Source of the DNA: Bacillota bacterium
Lineage (GTDB): Bacteria > Bacillota > Dethiobacteria > Dethiobacterales > Dethiobacteraceae
DNA: 50,991 nucleotides
Assembly (NCBI GenBank): GCA_018725565.1
Contig: QLUR01000020.1
Span: 1 to 50,991 of the forward strand
Reading direction: 5' to 3'
Both the position numbers and the translations under genes were made by a program. The notes beneath the pieces are model-generated. The model was not told the DNA's origin. It saw only the letters and a program-made list of their open reading frames with translations, and did no database searches. Position 1 is the stretch's first letter. Each line of letters begins with the position of its first letter. Positions 2,082-31,704 of this stretch are shown in pieces.

Positions 2082-2947
2082 TAGCTTAAAACCTCCTTCA
2101 GCTGCAAGAGCGCCGCCTCCGCAGCGAGCCGGACGTTCACCGGGGTTTGCAGGTTTTTCTGCAACTTCAGCAAAATAACGATTGCTTTAAATGCTCCCCC
2201 GGCCGTCCATTGTTCATCCAGACCGGCATAGGTTTCCCGTTCAAAAAACAGTAATGTCTCCCTACCGCTGCTCAGCAGGACAAGGATGTCCCGCAACATG
2301 GTCAGTATGACATCAAGAATGCCCGGCAGGTTTTCGTTCCCGGCCAACCGCCCGCTGAGTACACTTACTCCTGTTTCCTGCCGCAGTGCCGTTAAAAAAG
2401 CTGCTGCTTCTCCTGTTAACGACCGAAACATTTCACTTTGCTCCGGCTGCTCTGCCAGGCAACGCAGCGGAAATACCTGGCAGCGGGAAACAACCGTCGA
2501 AGGCAGCAGCCCGGGCTTCTCCGCCAACAGGATAAAGATAACTGACGCCGGAGGTTCCTCCAGTGTTTTCAGCATGCTGTTGGCCGCCTCCGGTGTTAAG
2601 CCCTGCGTGGCATCCAGGATAAAAATTTGCTGCCGCCCTTCCAGCGGCTGCAGAGCAGCAGCTTTTATAACCTGTCTCACCTGTTCAATCCGTATCGCTT
2701 TTCCTTCGGGAGCAATCCAATGGACATCAGGATGACTGCGTCGGACTACCTTTTGGCAGGACAGGCAGGTTTCACATGGCCCCTCCGGGAATTGCAGGCA
2801 GTTCAACGCCTGGGCAATACTGCCTGCCAGCTTTTTTTTACCTGTTCCCGCCGGACCGTAAAAAAGATAGGCATGCCCAACCGAGCCTTTGGACATAGCA
2901 ACTCGCAATACCTGGACAATATGCTGCTGGCCGGACGCTTCTATCAC
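2081..2947 (-). CDS. holB: DNA polymerase III delta' subunit
   Basis: Clamp-loader subunit, 288 aa. It has a P-loop-like GPAGTGKK at residues 31-38, a four-cysteine zinc module (C50, C58, C61, C64) and the SRC motif in STVVSRCQVF. The C-terminal collar domain is less conserved, as usual. The start is GTG after GGAGTGAGGG; the N-terminus is a few residues shorter than many homologues. It lies between tmk and ricT as in B. subtilis, but the two small genes normally separating it from tmk (yaaQ/darA and yaaR) are absent. Confidence 0.93.
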   Translation of the reverse strand: MIEASGQQHIVQVLRVAMSKGSVGHAYLFYGPAGTGKKKLAGSIAQALNCLQFPEGPCETCLSCQKVVRRSHPDVHWIAPEGKAIRIEQVRQVIKAAALQPLEGRQQIFILDATQGLTPEAANSMLKTLEEPPASVIFILLAEKPGLLPSTVVSRCQVFPLRCLAEQPEQSEMFRSLTGEAAAFLTALRQETGVSVLSGRLAGNENLPGILDVILTMLRDILVLLSSGRETLLFFERETYAGLDEQWTAGGAFKAIVILLKLQKNLQTPVNVRLAAEAALLQLKEVLS

Positions 2948-7607: not shown

Positions 7608-7665
7608 ATCTTTCTGATGGTGCCGCCGCAGGCGGGAGTATGGGGGGTCTACCAGGATTTTAACA

Positions 7666-7698
7666 AAAATACGGCCGGTCAGCAACCCGCCGTATTTT
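7666..7698 (-). terminator. intrinsic terminator of the por operon
   Basis: AAAATACGGC (7666-7675) and GCCGTATTTT (7689-7698) form a perfect 10-bp stem. It begins eight bases past the porB stop and ends in a T-rich tract on the minus strand. Confidence 0.85.
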
Positions 7699-7705
7699 CT
7701 GCTCT

Positions 7706-8647
7706 CTAACTTTCCGTCGTCTCGCCGCAGCGCAGGAGCAGCTGCTCCCACTGCTGGTCGGTGAAAGCCTGCAGCTGCTCAAGGATCGCCTCATTTTCCG
7801 GCCGGAAAAGGTGACTGTACCGTCCCTGTTTTTCGAGATACTCACGCAACGGTTTTTTCTGGCGCACTTTATGAGTGAGACGCCATTTGCCATTTTCCAC
7901 CTCATAAAGCGGCCAGATGCACGTCTCGGTCGCCAGGCGGCTGATTTCCACCGTTTCTTCCATGGGGTAGCGCCAGCCGCGATGACAAGGCGCCAGGATG
8001 TTAAGCAAAGCCGACCCGTCAGCCTGAAAAGCTTTACGCGCTTTATTGACGGTATCGCGCCAGCTGTGTATGGCGGCCTGTGCCACATAAGGAATATTGT
8101 GTGCGGCGGCAATCGCTGTCAGGTCCTTGCGGTTCTGCGCTTTGCCGGCGCTTCTTTCACCAAAAGGAGAGGTAGTGGTCCAGGTACCTAACTGGGTAGC
8201 TCCAGAACGCTGGATACCGGTATTCATATAAGCCTCATTGTTATAGCAGACGTAGACAACACGATGTCCGCGCTCCAGCATACCGGACAAAGCCTGCAGT
8301 CCGATGTCGTAGGTGCCTCCATCGCCGCCGAAGACAACAAAACGGAAATCTTCGCCGATTTTTCCTTTCTTCTTCAGCGCCCGGTAAGCCGCTTCCACTC
8401 CGCTGATGGTGGCTGCGGCATTTTCAAAAGCACTGTGGATAAATGCTGTACGCCAGGAGCTGTATGGATAGATCGAAGTCGAAACCTCCAGGCAGCCTGT
8501 CGGGCAGCATGTCACTACCTGCGCATTCTCCGGAACGGCATGCAGCACCTGCCGCACCGCAATTGGCGCGCCGCAGCCGGCGCACATGCGGTGACCGCCG
8601 GTCAGAAGTTCTTTTTGATGCGTCAAGTCGCTTAGTTTTATGGCCAC
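7706..8647 (-). CDS. porB: 2-oxoacid:ferredoxin oxidoreductase, beta subunit
   Basis: TPP-binding subunit of a pyruvate (or branched 2-oxoacid) ferredoxin oxidoreductase, 313 aa. The N-terminal MCAGCG (C22, C25) and TCCPTGC (C47, C48, C52), with a later cysteine in APCHRGW, match the [4Fe-4S] cluster of the subunit. GGDGGTYDIGLQAL is the TPP/Mg motif. The start is GTG at 8647, eight bases after AGGGAGG; a longer frame upstream overlaps porA and is rejected. It is the last gene of porC-porD-porA-porB and is followed by a terminator. Pyruvate is the likeliest substrate but 2-oxoisovalerate is not excluded. Confidence 0.92.
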   Translation of the reverse strand: MAIKLSDLTHQKELLTGGHRMCAGCGAPIAVRQVLHAVPENAQVVTCCPTGCLEVSTSIYPYSSWRTAFIHSAFENAAATISGVEAAYRALKKKGKIGEDFRFVVFGGDGGTYDIGLQALSGMLERGHRVVYVCYNNEAYMNTGIQRSGATQLGTWTTTSPFGERSAGKAQNRKDLTAIAAAHNIPYVAQAAIHSWRDTVNKARKAFQADGSALLNILAPCHRGWRYPMEETVEISRLATETCIWPLYEVENGKWRLTHKVRQKKPLREYLEKQGRYSHLFRPENEAILEQLQAFTDQQWEQLLLRCGETTES

Positions 8648-26222: not shown

Positions 26223-26564
26223 CTACAGCGCTTTTTCCCCTTCTTCGCCGGTCCGGATGCGGATGACCTGAGCAACATTATCGAAGATAAATATTTTGCC
26301 ATCGCCAACTTCACCGGTCCGGGCGCTTTCCAGGATGACTCTCTTGATTTTTTCCACCTCGCTGTCTTTTACCAGCAGTTCCAGCTTGACTTTTGGCAAC
26401 AGGTCCACCTTATACCTCTCCCCGCGCCATTGCTGGATGATTCCCTTTTGCGTGCCATGCCCCTCTATTTCCGTAATCATCAGACCGTTGCAGCCAAGCT
26501 CAGTTAACGCCTGTTTCACTTCGGCCAGCTTTTCCGGACGAATGACGGCAGTAAGCAGTTTCAT
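26223..26564 (-). CDS. glnB: nitrogen regulatory protein P-II
   Basis: P-II signal protein, 113 aa, that reads ATP/ADP and 2-oxoglutarate and usually gates the adjacent ammonium channel. The T-loop holds Y51 (RGERYKVDLLPKVKLE). GEVGDGKIFIFDNVAQVIRIRTGE is the C-terminal nucleotide site, close to the standard signature but with FDN where many have PVE. It overlaps amt by four bases and is followed by an intrinsic terminator, so amt-glnB form one unit. Confidence 0.95.
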   Translation of the reverse strand: MKLLTAVIRPEKLAEVKQALTELGCNGLMITEIEGHGTQKGIIQQWRGERYKVDLLPKVKLELLVKDSEVEKIKRVILESARTGEVGDGKIFIFDNVAQVIRIRTGEEGEKAL

Positions 26565-27937
26565 AGCCGGACCCCTCCTTTATTTAACGCTTGGCTGGCT
26601 TGCTGCGGGACCGCTACGCCGCTCAGCACATTAAACGAGTAGGCGGGCTTGCGGGTCAAAAAGTCCGGATAAGCCTCATTCCCATGTTCGCCTCTGTCCA
26701 GACCTTCGATCTCCTCCCGCAGGCTGACTCTGATCCCCATCGTCATTTTAAGTGCCGCCCAAACCAGCAAGGCAGCCGAAAACACAAAGGCTCCCACCGA
26801 GACCACCCCCATTAACTGAGCAACCAGCAGTCCGGTTCCACCACCAAACAACAGCCCGTTGCCGGTAGCCACACCTGTCAGGCCATCCTGGGCAAAAAGA
26901 CCTACCGCCAATGTTCCAAAAATACCATTGACTAGGTGGACGGAAAGTGCTCCTACCGGGTCATCAATTTTCAGGCGGTCAAAGGCCACAACAGAGACAA
27001 CAACCAGAACACCGGCAATCAGCCCGATTAGCAGCGAACTGCCGACACTGACAAAGGCGCAGGCTGCTGTAATGGCTACCAGGCCGGCCAAGCCTCCATT
27101 TAATGTCATGCCAAGGTCTGGTTTGCCAAACAGTAGCCAGGAGGCGAGCGTAGTGCTGAGAACAGCTGCTGCGGCAGCGGTGTTTGTGGTAACGACTATG
27201 TGGGAGATAGCTTCCGGATTCGCCGCCATGGTAGAGCCGGGATTGAAACCGAACCAGCCAAACCAAAGCACTAATGTACCAAGTGTGGCCAAACTTAGAT
27301 TATGGCCGGGAATAGGGACTATTTTGCCGTTGGCCGTATATTTACCAAACCTCGGCCCCAAAAGCAGGACTCCGGCCAGTGCCGCCCAGCCGCCTACCGA
27401 ATGAACTACGGTTGAGCCGGCAAAATCAAACATCCCATTTTGATACAACCAGCCGCCGCCCCAGATCCAATGACCTACCACCGGGTAAATGAGCATGGTC
27501 AGGAAAAAGGAGAAGACAATAAAGGATTTGTATTTTATACGTTCGGCCACCGCTCCGGAGACGATGGTGGCAGCTGTCCCGGCAAAGACAAGCTGGAAGA
27601 AAAATTTGGCCATCAAAGGCACTCCGGCCCAGGAAAGGGCTGAATATACACCCTGGTAGGCGGCGCCGGTCGCCGGAGAGTTATCCGCCCCGCCCAGAAA
27701 AAAGAGTCCGTTTGTTCCAAAGATGGAGTTGCCGTCACCAAACATCAGGCCAAAGCCAAGGAACAGGAAACCCAATGAGGAAACAGCAAAAACAATAAAG
27801 TTTTTAGAGAGAATATTAACCGCGTTTTTGGCTCTGGCAAAACCTGATTCAACCATTGCAAAACCTAAATTCATAAAAAATACCAACATTGCCGCAATCA
27901 AAACCCAGATCGTATCCATTACCACTTTGGTCTCCAT
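26561..27937 (-). CDS. amt: ammonium transporter
   Basis: Amt/Rh-family ammonium channel, 458 aa with about eleven transmembrane helices. Hallmarks are FFMNLGFAMVESGFARAKNAVNIL, the FDFAGSTVVHSVGGWAAL-like segment (here reading FDFAGSTVVHSVGGW), and the second pore histidine in VHLVNGIFGTLAVG. The C-terminal tail that docks P-II is present. ATG at 27937 follows GGAGGG by seven bases. The in-frame sequence upstream contains an ATG-TAA start-stop pair behind a strong ribosome binding site. Confidence 0.95.
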   Translation of the reverse strand: METKVVMDTIWVLIAAMLVFFMNLGFAMVESGFARAKNAVNILSKNFIVFAVSSLGFLFLGFGLMFGDGNSIFGTNGLFFLGGADNSPATGAAYQGVYSALSWAGVPLMAKFFFQLVFAGTAATIVSGAVAERIKYKSFIVFSFFLTMLIYPVVGHWIWGGGWLYQNGMFDFAGSTVVHSVGGWAALAGVLLLGPRFGKYTANGKIVPIPGHNLSLATLGTLVLWFGWFGFNPGSTMAANPEAISHIVVTTNTAAAAAVLSTTLASWLLFGKPDLGMTLNGGLAGLVAITAACAFVSVGSSLLIGLIAGVLVVVSVVAFDRLKIDDPVGALSVHLVNGIFGTLAVGLFAQDGLTGVATGNGLLFGGGTGLLVAQLMGVVSVGAFVFSAALLVWAALKMTMGIRVSLREEIEGLDRGEHGNEAYPDFLTRKPAYSFNVLSGVAVPQQASQALNKGGVRL

Positions 27938-27985
27938 TTTTCTGCCCTCCGTTCTTTGTTTGGACTGCTCGCCGCGCAATTCTTT

Positions 27986-28117: not shown

Positions 28118-29446
28118 TTAAAATTTAGCCAGATAGCGGTCGGTTTCCCATTGATGCACCGTCATTTCATACTCCCGGTATTCCTGGTGCTTGGCCTCCA
28201 AAAACCGCTGGCAGATATGCTCCCCCAAAGCATCCCGGATAACCTCACTGCCCGCCAGATTGTTCAGCGCTTGATTTAAATTGCCTGGCAGACTGGCGAT
28301 GCCCATAGCTGCTCTGTCTTCCGCCGTCAGACGATAAATATTTTTTTCAACCGGAGCAGGCGGTTGAATTTTATTCCTGATACCGTCCAGGCCCGCTTTT
28401 AGCATCACCGCCAAGGCCAAGTAAGGATTGCAGGACGGGTCGGGAGAGCGCACCTCAATCCTGGTGCCGACGCCCCGGCGCGCCGGAATACGAATCAGCG
28501 GAGAGCGGTTACGCTGCGACCAGGCCAGGTAAACCGGCGCTTCATAGCCAGGCACCAGGCGTTTATAAGAATTGACCGTGGGGTTGGTAATCGCCGTAAA
28601 GGCCGGCACATGCCTTAATATCCCGCCGATATAATGCAAGGCTGTCTCGCTAAGCTGATAGGGCGCGTGTTCGTCGTAAAAAATATTTTGGTTATCTTTA
28701 AAGAGTGATTGGTGGGTGTGCATGCCGGAACCGTTAATCCCGAAAATCGGCTTGGGCATAAAAGAAGCGTGCAGGCCGTGACGCTGGGCGATGGTGCGTA
28801 CCACGAACTTAAAAGTTACCAGCTTGTCGGCGGTGGCCAGCGCCTCGTCATACTTAAAATCAATCTCATGCTGCCCTTCCGCTACTTCATGATGGCTGGC
28901 CTCAATCTCAAACCCCATTTCCTGCAGCGTCATAACCATATCCCGCCGCGCATTTTCCCCCAGGTCCACGGGAGAAAGGTCAAAATAGCCGCCCTTGTCG
29001 TGGGTAATAGTGGTGGGCCGGCCGCTCTCATCGACGTGAAACAGGAAAAATTCGGCTTCGGGTCCGGCGTTCATCGTATAGCCCATTTCGCGCGCTTCCG
29101 TCAGCACCCGCTTAAGCGTGCAGCGCGGACAGCCGGCAAAAGGTTCACCGTCCGGCGTATACACGTCACAGATGAGGCGGGCGACGCTGCCGTCACGGGG
29201 ACGCCACGGGAAAACGGCAAAAGTGTCGGGGTCCGGTTTTAAGAACTGGTCGGATTCTTCAATCCGCACAAACCCTTCAATTGAAGAACCGTCAAACATC
29301 AGCTCCCCGTCAAGCGCTTTCTCCAGTTGGTCAACCGGAATGGCCACGTTTTTTAAAATGCCGAAAATGTCGGTAAACTGGAGGCGGATGAATTTAACAT
29401 TAGCCTCCTTAGCCAAAATGAGGACATCTTGTTTTGCGTAACCCAT
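28118..29446 (-). CDS. glnA: glutamine synthetase type I
   Basis: ATP-dependent synthesis of glutamine from glutamate and ammonium, 442 aa, the GSI-alpha size typical of Firmicutes and lacking the adenylylated tyrosine loop of GSI-beta. Motifs include [27 protein letters not shown], the ATP site [16 protein letters not shown], the glutamate-flap region [17 protein letters not shown] and [26 protein letters not shown]. The start is ATG after AAAGGAG. There is no room for a separate promoter between the upstream leader terminator (29481-29518) and the start, so expression should depend on read-through from the ANTAR gene promoter. Confidence 0.97.
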
Positions 29447-29480
29447 TGTTTAACAACTCCTTTTCTAAAATAAACAAAAA

Positions 29481-29518
29481 GCACCCTTGGAAGAAAAAGA
29501 TTATTTCTTCCCGGGCAC
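29481..29518 (-). terminator. leader terminator/attenuator before glnA
   Basis: On the minus strand GTGCCC, GGAAGAAA, a short loop, TTTCTTCC and GGGTGC pair into a long stem (two G-T pairs and one internal loop) followed by TTTTTGTTTATTTT. It sits between the ANTAR stop and glnA. A small alternative hairpin, GGC-AATGGT-GCC (29525-29514), overlaps its 5' arm; the loop has A at 1 and G at 4. Confidence 0.75.
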
Positions 29519-29559
29519 CATTGCCTCCCGTATCTTCTTCAGTTGTACCTCCGGCTGCC

Positions 29560-30126
29560 CTACATCAGCCGGCTAAATTCGTGAGCGGTGATTATCGCCT
29601 CAGCAATGTTTTTCAGCGGCCTGCGTTTATTCATGCTTTGCTGTTGTATCATCCTGTAGGCATCTTGTTCTGAGCACCCGAGCGAATCCATCAGAAAACC
29701 CTTCGCCCTCTCCACAACTTTTCGTGTTTCCAGTGTTTCTTTCATTCTGGCCAGGTCGTCAGCTGCCTTCCGCAGTCTGCACATGCCCGCCGCCGCGAAT
29801 TCGACCGCTGTCAGCAATGCAGTCTCATTAACAGGTTTTTGAATCTGACCCGAGACAGTTGAACTTCGCCCCCTGCGGGGATATGCGCTTAACAGCACCA
29901 GAGCGATTTGCCCGTCCTCCTCCAGCAATTTAGCCGCAGCTATCCCCTGCCGGCTGTCAATGTCAACCACAGCAACATCAGGCTGCAACGCCTGAATCAG
30001 GCGGAGCACTCCCGTTCCGCTGCCGGCTTCTCCGACAACCAGACAGCCTGCCGTTGCCAGGATTGAGCCACTTTCTTTCCTGACGCCGGCGGAATCGGAG
30101 CTGATGAAAACTCTGACGCCGCTCAT
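29560..30126 (-). CDS. ANTAR-domain response regulator (antiterminator)
   Basis: Receiver-like plus ANTAR RNA-binding protein, 188 aa. The receiver part keeps a candidate phospho-acceptor in DVAVVDIDS, a serine in LLSAYP and the lysine in QIQKPVNE. The ANTAR domain, about residues 125-185, reads RKVVERAKGFLMDSLGCSEQDAYRMIQQQSM followed by KNIAEAII. ANTAR proteins bind paired hexaloop hairpins and prevent terminator formation; NitR-type members adjoin glnA in solventogenic clostridia. Here the gene is just upstream of glnA with terminators before itself and before glnA, which suits glutamine-dependent antitermination. The start is ATG after GGGGGGCGG. Confidence 0.9.
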   Translation of the reverse strand: MSGVRVFISSDSAGVRKESGSILATAGCLVVGEAGSGTGVLRLIQALQPDVAVVDIDSRQGIAAAKLLEEDGQIALVLLSAYPRRGRSSTVSGQIQKPVNETALLTAVEFAAAGMCRLRKAADDLARMKETLETRKVVERAKGFLMDSLGCSEQDAYRMIQQQSMNKRRPLKNIAEAIITAHEFSRLM

Positions 30127-30149
30127 AAGCCGCCCCCCTGTAAAAAAAA

Positions 30150-30185
30150 ACGCCTCCACGCAGAGAAAATCTCTGAATCAGGCGT
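30150..30185 (-). terminator. leader terminator of the ANTAR gene
   Basis: Minus-strand ACGCCT (30185-30180) and AGGCGT (30155-30150), with an inner CAGAG/CTCTG hairpin, are followed by nine Ts. It stands 24 bases before the ANTAR start codon, in the leader, so full-length transcription needs read-through. Confidence 0.8.
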
Positions 30186-30210
30186 CACTGCCCGGCACAA
30201 CATTGTACCA
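30179..30210 (-). promoter_or_regulatory. tandem hexaloop hairpins, predicted ANTAR binding site
   Basis: Hairpin P1 is TGGTAC-AATGTT-GTGCCG (30210-30193). Hairpin P2 is CGGGC-AGTGAC-GCCTG (30194-30179). Both have six-base loops with A at 1 and G at 4 and a C-G closing pair, and they adjoin directly. P2 shares bases 30185-30180 with the 5' arm of the leader terminator, so P2 and the terminator exclude each other. Confidence 0.7.
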
Positions 30211-30226
30211 TATGCCGTTGTTTTTT

Positions 30227-30255
30227 ATTATAAATCAGAGCAATACAGTTTGCAA
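30227..30255 (-). promoter_or_regulatory. sigma-A-type promoter of the ANTAR-glnA unit
   Basis: Minus-strand TTGCAA (30255-30250) and a perfect TATAAT (30232-30227) are 17 bases apart, placing the transcript start just before hairpin P1. Confidence 0.7.
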
Positions 30256-30322: not shown

Positions 30323-30352
30323 TTGACAGTTACATACTAATATAAGTATAAT
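30323..30352 (+). promoter_or_regulatory. sigma-A-type promoter of the AAA/DUF4143 gene
   Basis: A perfect TTGACA (30323-30328) and perfect TATAAT (30347-30352) are 18 bases apart in AT-rich DNA, about 36 bases before the start codon. Confidence 0.72.
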
Positions 30353-30387: not shown

Positions 30388-31704
30388 GTGGTTGTCAAGC
30401 TGGAGCGACTAGCAAATAAAGAGCTTTTAAACTGGAAAAAACGCAAGGACAGGAAACCATTAATCTTAAAAGGTGTCCGTCAATGCGGAAAAACTTTTCT
30501 GTTAAATGCGTTCGGACAGGAGAATTATGAAGATGTAGCATATTTTAACTTCGAAAATACCCCTGCGCTGGCCGAACGCTTTGAACCAAATCTCGACCCA
30601 GGAAGAATTCTGGCAGAGCTAGGGATTTTAATCGGCAAGAGGATTAAGCCAGGTTCGACGCTGATAATTTTTGACGAAGTCCAATTTTGCAGCAAGGCCT
30701 TGACATCCTTGAAATATTTTAACGAGCAACTTCCTGAATATCATATCGCTTGCGCCGGTTCACTGCTGGGCATTGCTTTGTCAGGTCCTTCATCTTTTCC
30801 GGTGGGCAAAGTAGATTTTCTGACACTTCGTCCCATGAGTTTTTATGAATTCATCCTCGCCAACAATGAGCAGATGTTGCTGGAGCATATAGAGCAGCAG
30901 AACAAGCCGGCGCCGCTGCCGCAAATATTTGCCGATAAACTCCTAACGCTGTTAAAAAACTATTATGTGACAGGCGGCATGCCGGAAGTTGTCGCCAAGT
31001 GGATTGAAAACAAGGATGTGGCTGAGGTTGAGAGGATACAGGGATTGATCCTAAACTCATTTGAATTGGATTTTGCGAAACATGCCCCGACAGCAGACTT
31101 TCCCAAGCTGTTATTGGTGTGGAAAAGCATTCCCGGTCAATTGGCCAAAGAAAATAGTAAATTTATTTATGGCCATGTAAAACCGGGAGCAAGAGCCAAA
31201 GACCTGGAAGACGCAATTCAGTGGCTGGTAAGCGCAGGCATGATCTTTAAAGTCCTGAAAATCGAAAAACCGGCCATACCTTTGTCGGCTTATTCCAACC
31301 ATAGCTTTTTTAAGATATATTTGGCTGACGTCGGCCTGCTCAGAAAAATGTCCGGGCTGCCCGCTGCAGCAATATATGAAGACTCGCTGCTGTACTCAGA
31401 ATTTAAAGGCGCTCTGACAGAAAATTATGTTTTAGCCGAGCTTGTTAACCTGCTTGGAGATGTCCCTTATTTTTGGAAATCGGGCAACACCGCGGAAGTT
31501 GATTTTGTTGCGCAGTTTAAGAATGCGATTATCCCCATTGAGGTGAAAGCTTCAACCAGCGTTAAATCACGCAGTTTAGGTGTTTACCGCGAAAAATACA
31601 AGCCCGGGATTGCCGTCAGAACCTCTATGCTGAACCTAAAAGAGGACGAAGGACTGTTAAGTCTGCCCCTTTACCTGCTTTGGGCAGCGGAAAAGTTATT
31701 GTAA
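30388..31704 (+). CDS. AAA-family ATPase with DUF4143 domain
   Basis: Cytoplasmic ATPase, 438 aa. Walker A is GVRQCGKTF near residue 30 and Walker B is TLIIFDEVQF near 95. A winged-helix middle part is followed by a C-terminal DUF4143 domain whose WKSGNTAEVDFVAQ ... IPIEVKAS resembles a PD-(D/E)XK nuclease core. These proteins are widespread, often horizontally moved, and of unknown function. Base composition is clearly more A+T-rich than the neighbours, it is on the opposite strand from nearly everything else, and its 3' end overlaps the fabH-like gene by 34 bases, all suggesting a later arrival. The start is GTG with only a weak ribosome binding site. Confidence 0.9.
   Translation: MVVKLERLANKELLNWKKRKDRKPLILKGVRQCGKTFLLNAFGQENYEDVAYFNFENTPALAERFEPNLDPGRILAELGILIGKRIKPGSTLIIFDEVQFCSKALTSLKYFNEQLPEYHIACAGSLLGIALSGPSSFPVGKVDFLTLRPMSFYEFILANNEQMLLEHIEQQNKPAPLPQIFADKLLTLLKNYYVTGGMPEVVAKWIENKDVAEVERIQGLILNSFELDFAKHAPTADFPKLLLVWKSIPGQLAKENSKFIYGHVKPGARAKDLEDAIQWLVSAGMIFKVLKIEKPAIPLSAYSNHSFFKIYLADVGLLRKMSGLPAAAIYEDSLLYSEFKGALTENYVLAELVNLLGDVPYFWKSGNTAEVDFVAQFKNAIIPIEVKASTSVKSRSLGVYREKYKPGIAVRTSMLNLKEDEGLLSLPLYLLWAAEKLL

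Follow-up and report, generated by a model that had tools for sequence, protein, structure and literature searches.

The window analysed here, a stretch of 50,991 nucleotides assigned to the Dethiobacteraceae family, carries a gene encoding an ANTAR response-regulator-like protein upstream of the glutamine synthetase gene glnA. The locus raises the question of whether this protein controls its own transcription through the leader of its gene and whether such control reaches glnA. Both had been proposed in an earlier note on this DNA, in which the leader was described as an autoregulatory antitermination site with a positive feedback loop extending into glnA. The features of the locus are listed in Table 1.

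Organization of the ANTAR gene leader

On the minus strand, read directly in the 5′ to 3′ direction, the leader is composed of a promoter, the hairpins P1 and P2, an intrinsic terminator, and nine Ts, followed by the ANTAR start codon, all placed as the earlier note had described. The Ts occupy positions 30150-30142, so most of the run lies outside the interval given in that note (30150-30255). The two hairpins stand in tandem, with stems of at least 3 bp and hexaloops carrying A1 and G4, and a similar promoter was recognized by inspection in the seven orthologous leaders. The start codon was assigned to ATG 30126 and not to GTG 30159, the start in the mechanical list of open reading frames, because the first methionine is aligned in all eight orthologues. 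The ribosome-binding site of the ANTAR gene is separated from the hexaloops by some 40 nt or more.

Table 1. Features of the ANTAR-glnA locus in the window.
Feature	Position	Strand	Remarks
Sigma-70-type promoter TTGCAA-17-TATAAT	30227..30255	-	10 of 12 bases match the consensus
P1 hairpin GGTAC-AATGTT-GTGCC	30194..30209	-	5 bp; hexaloop with A1 and G4; C-G closing pair
P2 hairpin GGGC-AGTGAC-GCCT	30180..30193	-	Hexaloop with A1 and G4; C-G closing pair; abuts P1 directly
Intrinsic terminator ACGCCT...AGGCGT and nine Ts	30142..30185	-	5′ arm (30185-30180) coincides with the end of P2
ANTAR response-regulator-like gene	29560..30126	-	188 aa; only ANTAR domain of the genome; receiver pocket degenerate
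Single hexaloop hairpin GGC-AATGGT-GCC	29514..29525	-	Before glnA; no A1/G4 P1 detected upstream
Intrinsic terminator GTGCCC...GGGTGC and T run	29476..29518	-	Overlaps the single hexaloop hairpin; -19.5 kcal/mol
glnA, glutamine synthetase	28118..29446	-	442 aa; both attenuators lie upstream
amt (ammonium transporter) and P-II genes	26223..27979	-	After glnA; context only

The overlap between P2 and the terminator was confirmed base by base. Bases 30185-30184 correspond to loop positions 5 and 6 of P2 and bases 30183-30180 to its 3′ arm, while all six also form the 5′ arm of the terminator; P2 and the terminator are therefore mutually exclusive. Together, P1 and P2 fold at about -10.6 kcal/mol, against about -16 to -17 kcal/mol for the terminator stem alone (30185-30150), and the terminator is therefore the likely default state. 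An alternative 5′ stem (CGGCAU...GUGCCG), formed when the sequence was folded in isolation, was set aside as incidental since it was absent from the orthologues inspected. On the opposite strand, a perfect consensus promoter (TTGACA-18-TATAAT) at 30323-30352 (+) precedes a divergent ATPase-like open reading frame (30388-31704); about 70 bases separate this promoter from that of the ANTAR gene.

When both strands were scanned for pairs of A1/G4 hexaloops whose second hairpin overlaps a terminator, the ANTAR leader was the single site in the window, whereas 1,219 dinucleotide-shuffled sequences gave 0.06 such sites on average. Taken alone, this figure is suggestive; the leader is convincing because it is also conserved and precedes the sole ANTAR gene of this genome. 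A covariance model built from seven family leaders recovered the window leader as the sole strong match in its own genome (E 2.5e-8; next best, 0.11), and the terminator was not seen by eye at a weaker match (C20:48990). When P2-like hairpins with a T run behind them were sought by pattern, most of the sequences returned lacked terminator stems, and only the two attenuators of the window stood out on inspection. At the gathering thresholds of Rfam, the leader had no match, and the window matched only the SRP RNA and two tRNAs.

Conservation of the leader and the ANTAR protein

The family survey comprised 20 genomes, of which 8 (the window genome and seven more, with proteins 62-77% identical to that of the window) encode a close ANTAR orthologue and 12 do not. 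The leader is situated at the same place in 8/8 orthologous loci, and strong matches to the leader model were obtained in every one of these genomes, whereas none of the 12 others gave a strong match (best E 0.026). The positive matches are partly circular because those leaders largely trained the model; this does not apply to the absence from the 12 genomes or to two extra matches, which lie directly before glnA in G003 (C107:412-441) and G017 (C89:50556-50585) and were not in the training set. P1 was found in all ten leaders, i.e., the eight leaders of ANTAR genes and these two glnA leaders. In the same set, the terminator overlapping P2 could be folded in 10/10 cases, at -12.8 to -17.5 kcal/mol, despite a divergent upper stem.

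Conservation of the loops, on which the earlier note had made its proposal depend, was observed across the orthologous leaders. The loop rule stated there (A1, G4, and a C-G closing pair) holds for both window loops but is not strict, as position 1 of the P1 loop is G in two orthologues (L044, L047), while G4 is invariant. Covariation of the stems, on which the proposal also depended, was weak: one base pair of P1 is changed on both sides, and the covariation measures do not exceed those of shuffles. This is uninformative because stems and loops are nearly invariant.

The ANTAR gene of G003 and of G017, together with its leader, is located elsewhere and is not followed by glnA. Between the extra leader and glnA, remnants of the ANTAR gene were read by eye, consisting of the C-terminal tail in G003 and the start with a few codons in G017. 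Both glnA loci keep the dual leader as well as the single-hexaloop terminator, which suggests that the RNA sites are retained to control glnA in trans, irrespective of the ANTAR gene. A different rearrangement was seen in L042 (G013:C164, about 7643-8488), where ANTAR residues 1-166 fuse in one frame into an ammonium transporter from residue 36; this fusion, which lacks glnA, represents either a deletion or an assembly chimera.

The protein matched the ANTAR domain (PF03861) with 75.6 bits against a cut-off of 27.3, and the domain was found once in the 98%-complete genome, so self-action is the parsimonious reading. Its nearest solved structures are a putative antiterminator (1s8n) and EutV (6wsh/6ww6). 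In EutV, residues R142, K149, and E160 contact G4, with M172 listed alongside (Walshe 2022, PMC8934654). These four align with R135, K142, E153, and M165 of the window protein and are invariant in the 29 proteins compared, in nearly all of which Y157 is Y or F. The window protein thus unites the domain with the RNA-contact residues, and its gene and the leader lie near nitrogen genes of the same genome. Two other EutV contacts are replaced (R168 by Q and R177 by P). The receiver domain keeps D55 and K97; one acid of the acidic pair is kept in the window protein and in L042 and none in the other six orthologues. Given this degenerate pocket, activation by canonical phosphorylation is doubtful.

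Together, these results make an autogenous, ANTAR-dependent transcription attenuator the best explanation of the leader, and a highly likely one, in agreement with the site proposed in the earlier note. It could be argued that an ordinary terminator lies next to an unrelated 5′ structure and resembles an ANTAR site by chance, given how short the motifs are (the loop rule and stems of 3 bp) and that the stem covariation is not significant. Such a coincidence is highly improbable considering the shuffle expectation, the position before the only ANTAR gene, the restriction of the leader to the genomes with an orthologue, and its presence before glnA in two genomes whose ANTAR gene is elsewhere. 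A genuine ANTAR target might instead titrate the bound protein or act on translation, as exemplified by Mycobacterium ANTAR RNAs that overlap ribosome-binding sites and the decoy RNA EutX of E. faecalis (cited in PMC8934654). The distance of the hexaloops from the ribosome-binding site and the retention of the P2-overlapping terminator in every leader argue against this function, which we regard as improbable, if slightly less so than chance resemblance.

Hairpin spacing and relation to known ANTAR systems

Dual-hexaloop antitermination of nitrogen genes, including glutamine synthetase, is already published. The closest point of comparison is EutV and its eutP target in Enterococcus faecalis (PMC3369931, PMC8934654), where two A1/G4 hexaloops, with P2 overlapping an intrinsic terminator, are recognized by an ANTAR protein with matching G4-binding residues in a nitrogen-related operon, and which provides the precedent for the mutual exclusion of P2 and terminator (PMC3369931). 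EutV is activated by phosphorylation, in contrast to what the degenerate receiver of the window protein would predict; our site is placed before the regulator gene itself and is followed by an extra single-hexaloop attenuator before glnA. The hairpin spacing also differs. In the E. faecalis eut sites, the linkers measure 5-12 nt, and induction fell drastically when that of eutP was cut to 3 nt (PMC3369931). The P1-P2 linker is 0-1 nt in 10/10 leaders of the family, outside that working range. The range comes from functional measurements on eutP; the published search definition allows a variable linker (PMC3369931). The likeness to known paired-hexaloop sites on which the earlier note had drawn therefore extends to the loops and the terminator overlap but not to the geometry. 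In the other Bacillota loci examined, the hairpins are set further apart (roughly 4 to 22 nt), and abutting hairpins seem to be particular to the Dethiobacteraceae family.

In Desulfotomaculum and Pelobacter, Ramesh et al. (2012) predicted dual-hexaloop ANTAR RNAs upstream of nitrogen genes (PMC3369931). These RNAs, like the sites described here, combine the two hexaloops with a terminator before genes for glutamine synthase (the wording of that paper), P-II, and ammonium transporters, with several sites per regulon. In more distant Bacillota (L016, L017, L019, L020, L031), the leader of the ANTAR gene has a similar overlap of hairpin and terminator, and autogenous ANTAR leaders thus look common. 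The amidase operon of Pseudomonas aeruginosa provides a precedent for such feedback, since AmiR, an ANTAR protein with a pseudo-receiver, is encoded inside the operon that it antiterminates. AmiR is controlled by its partner AmiC. By analogy, a partner or ligand may report nitrogen status, probably the activating signal, to our ANTAR protein, although the operon here contains glutamine synthetase and an AmiC-like partner was not identified.

The second terminator before glnA and the proposed circuit

A second overlap between a hexaloop hairpin and a terminator, which the earlier note missed, lies in the gap that separates the ANTAR gene from glnA (29525-29476). The overlap was present in 7/7 loci, the loop being AATGGC or AACGGC in the six others, and the terminator folds in all seven despite divergent upper stems. 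An A1/G4 P1 hairpin upstream of the single hexaloop was not found in 6/7 loci, and L046 has one weak A-T-rich candidate. The attenuator may therefore work like an ANTAR site, but it is not a member of the dual-hexaloop class and could not have been found by the search of Ramesh et al., which required two hairpins (PMC3369931). Our literature search retrieved no description of a single-hexaloop attenuator. No promoter-like site was found in the gap between the ANTAR gene and glnA, so transcription into glnA passes two hexaloop-linked terminators. The feedback loop that the note had extended into glnA would accordingly run into another terminator, likewise linked to a hexaloop, where read-through would be gated again.

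From the order of these elements, we infer the following circuit. RNA polymerase would start about 10 nt before P1, and without help the nascent RNA would fold the 30185-30150 terminator and stop before the ANTAR gene. Active ANTAR protein would bind the P1 and P2 hexaloops through their G4 bases and keep P2 closed, withholding 30185-30180 from the terminator and allowing transcription of the ANTAR gene; the regulator is thus very likely to activate its own gene in a positive feedback loop. The polymerase would then meet the second terminator, whose 5′ arm is the end of the single hexaloop hairpin, and the same protein would probably open this gate, such that glnA would need two ANTAR-dependent read-through events. 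Abutting hairpins, the extra single-hexaloop gate, and a degenerate receiver distinguish this arrangement from the known mechanism. If the circuit is correct, an RNA-binding regulator that first has to open its own gate would control glutamine synthetase in these bacteria, and the response to nitrogen status could be sharp as a result. The abutting hairpins and conserved single hexaloop bear on the number and spacing of hexaloops that an ANTAR dimer needs to stop termination.

ANTAR control of the gate before glnA is the reading we favour, with less confidence than for the leader. The hairpin could also be no more than the base of a partial terminator that acts constitutively and fixes the ratio of ANTAR to glnA, leaving the leader as the protein-responsive attenuator; this possibility merits consideration but is the less probable of the two. 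It is in line with the lack of an upstream A1/G4 P1 in 6/7 loci, with the reported requirement of the P1 hexaloop for antitermination in vivo (Walshe 2022, PMC8934654), and with the 1.1 overlaps of a single hexaloop with a terminator expected per window by chance. Nevertheless, the AAYGGY hexaloop, its C-G closing pair, and the GGC/GCC stem are shared by 7/7 loci with diverging flanks, and the hairpin persists where the ANTAR open reading frame has been deleted. Moreover, hexaloop/terminator sites occupy the same position between ANTAR and glnA in distant Bacillota (L024, L026, L027), some with a P1, and an overlap of this kind was also found there in L019. Walshe et al. (2022, PMC8934654) define a single hexaloop as the minimal unit for binding but report that both hairpins must be contacted for antitermination. 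Under ANTAR control of the glnA gate, one speculative and rather unlikely version is a two-gate autogenous circuit in which the protein, first loaded on the dual leader, would be passed downstream to the single hexaloop as a working antiterminator, with P1 recruitment shared along the operon.

Additional hairpins were observed at other positions. A second glutamine synthetase, 70% identical to that of the window, is encoded at G000:C36:86307-87629, and no hexaloop/terminator overlap was found in the stretch surrounding it (L107). Between glnA and amt, a hairpin CAGGC-GAGGAG-GCCTG with G1 and G4 in its loop shares bases with the 5′ arm of a strong terminator (28098-28055, minus strand) and could be either a degenerate ANTAR site or a plain terminator. 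Downstream of glnA in L045, L046, and L047, recurrent GGAC-RNNGNN-GTCC hexaloop hairpins precede, by a few bases, terminators that lie in front of amt or P-II genes, with no overlap with the terminator stem. In the window, GGACAAGGATGTCC at 2278-2291 (+) fits this GGAC-type pattern, with 0.19 occurrences expected by chance.
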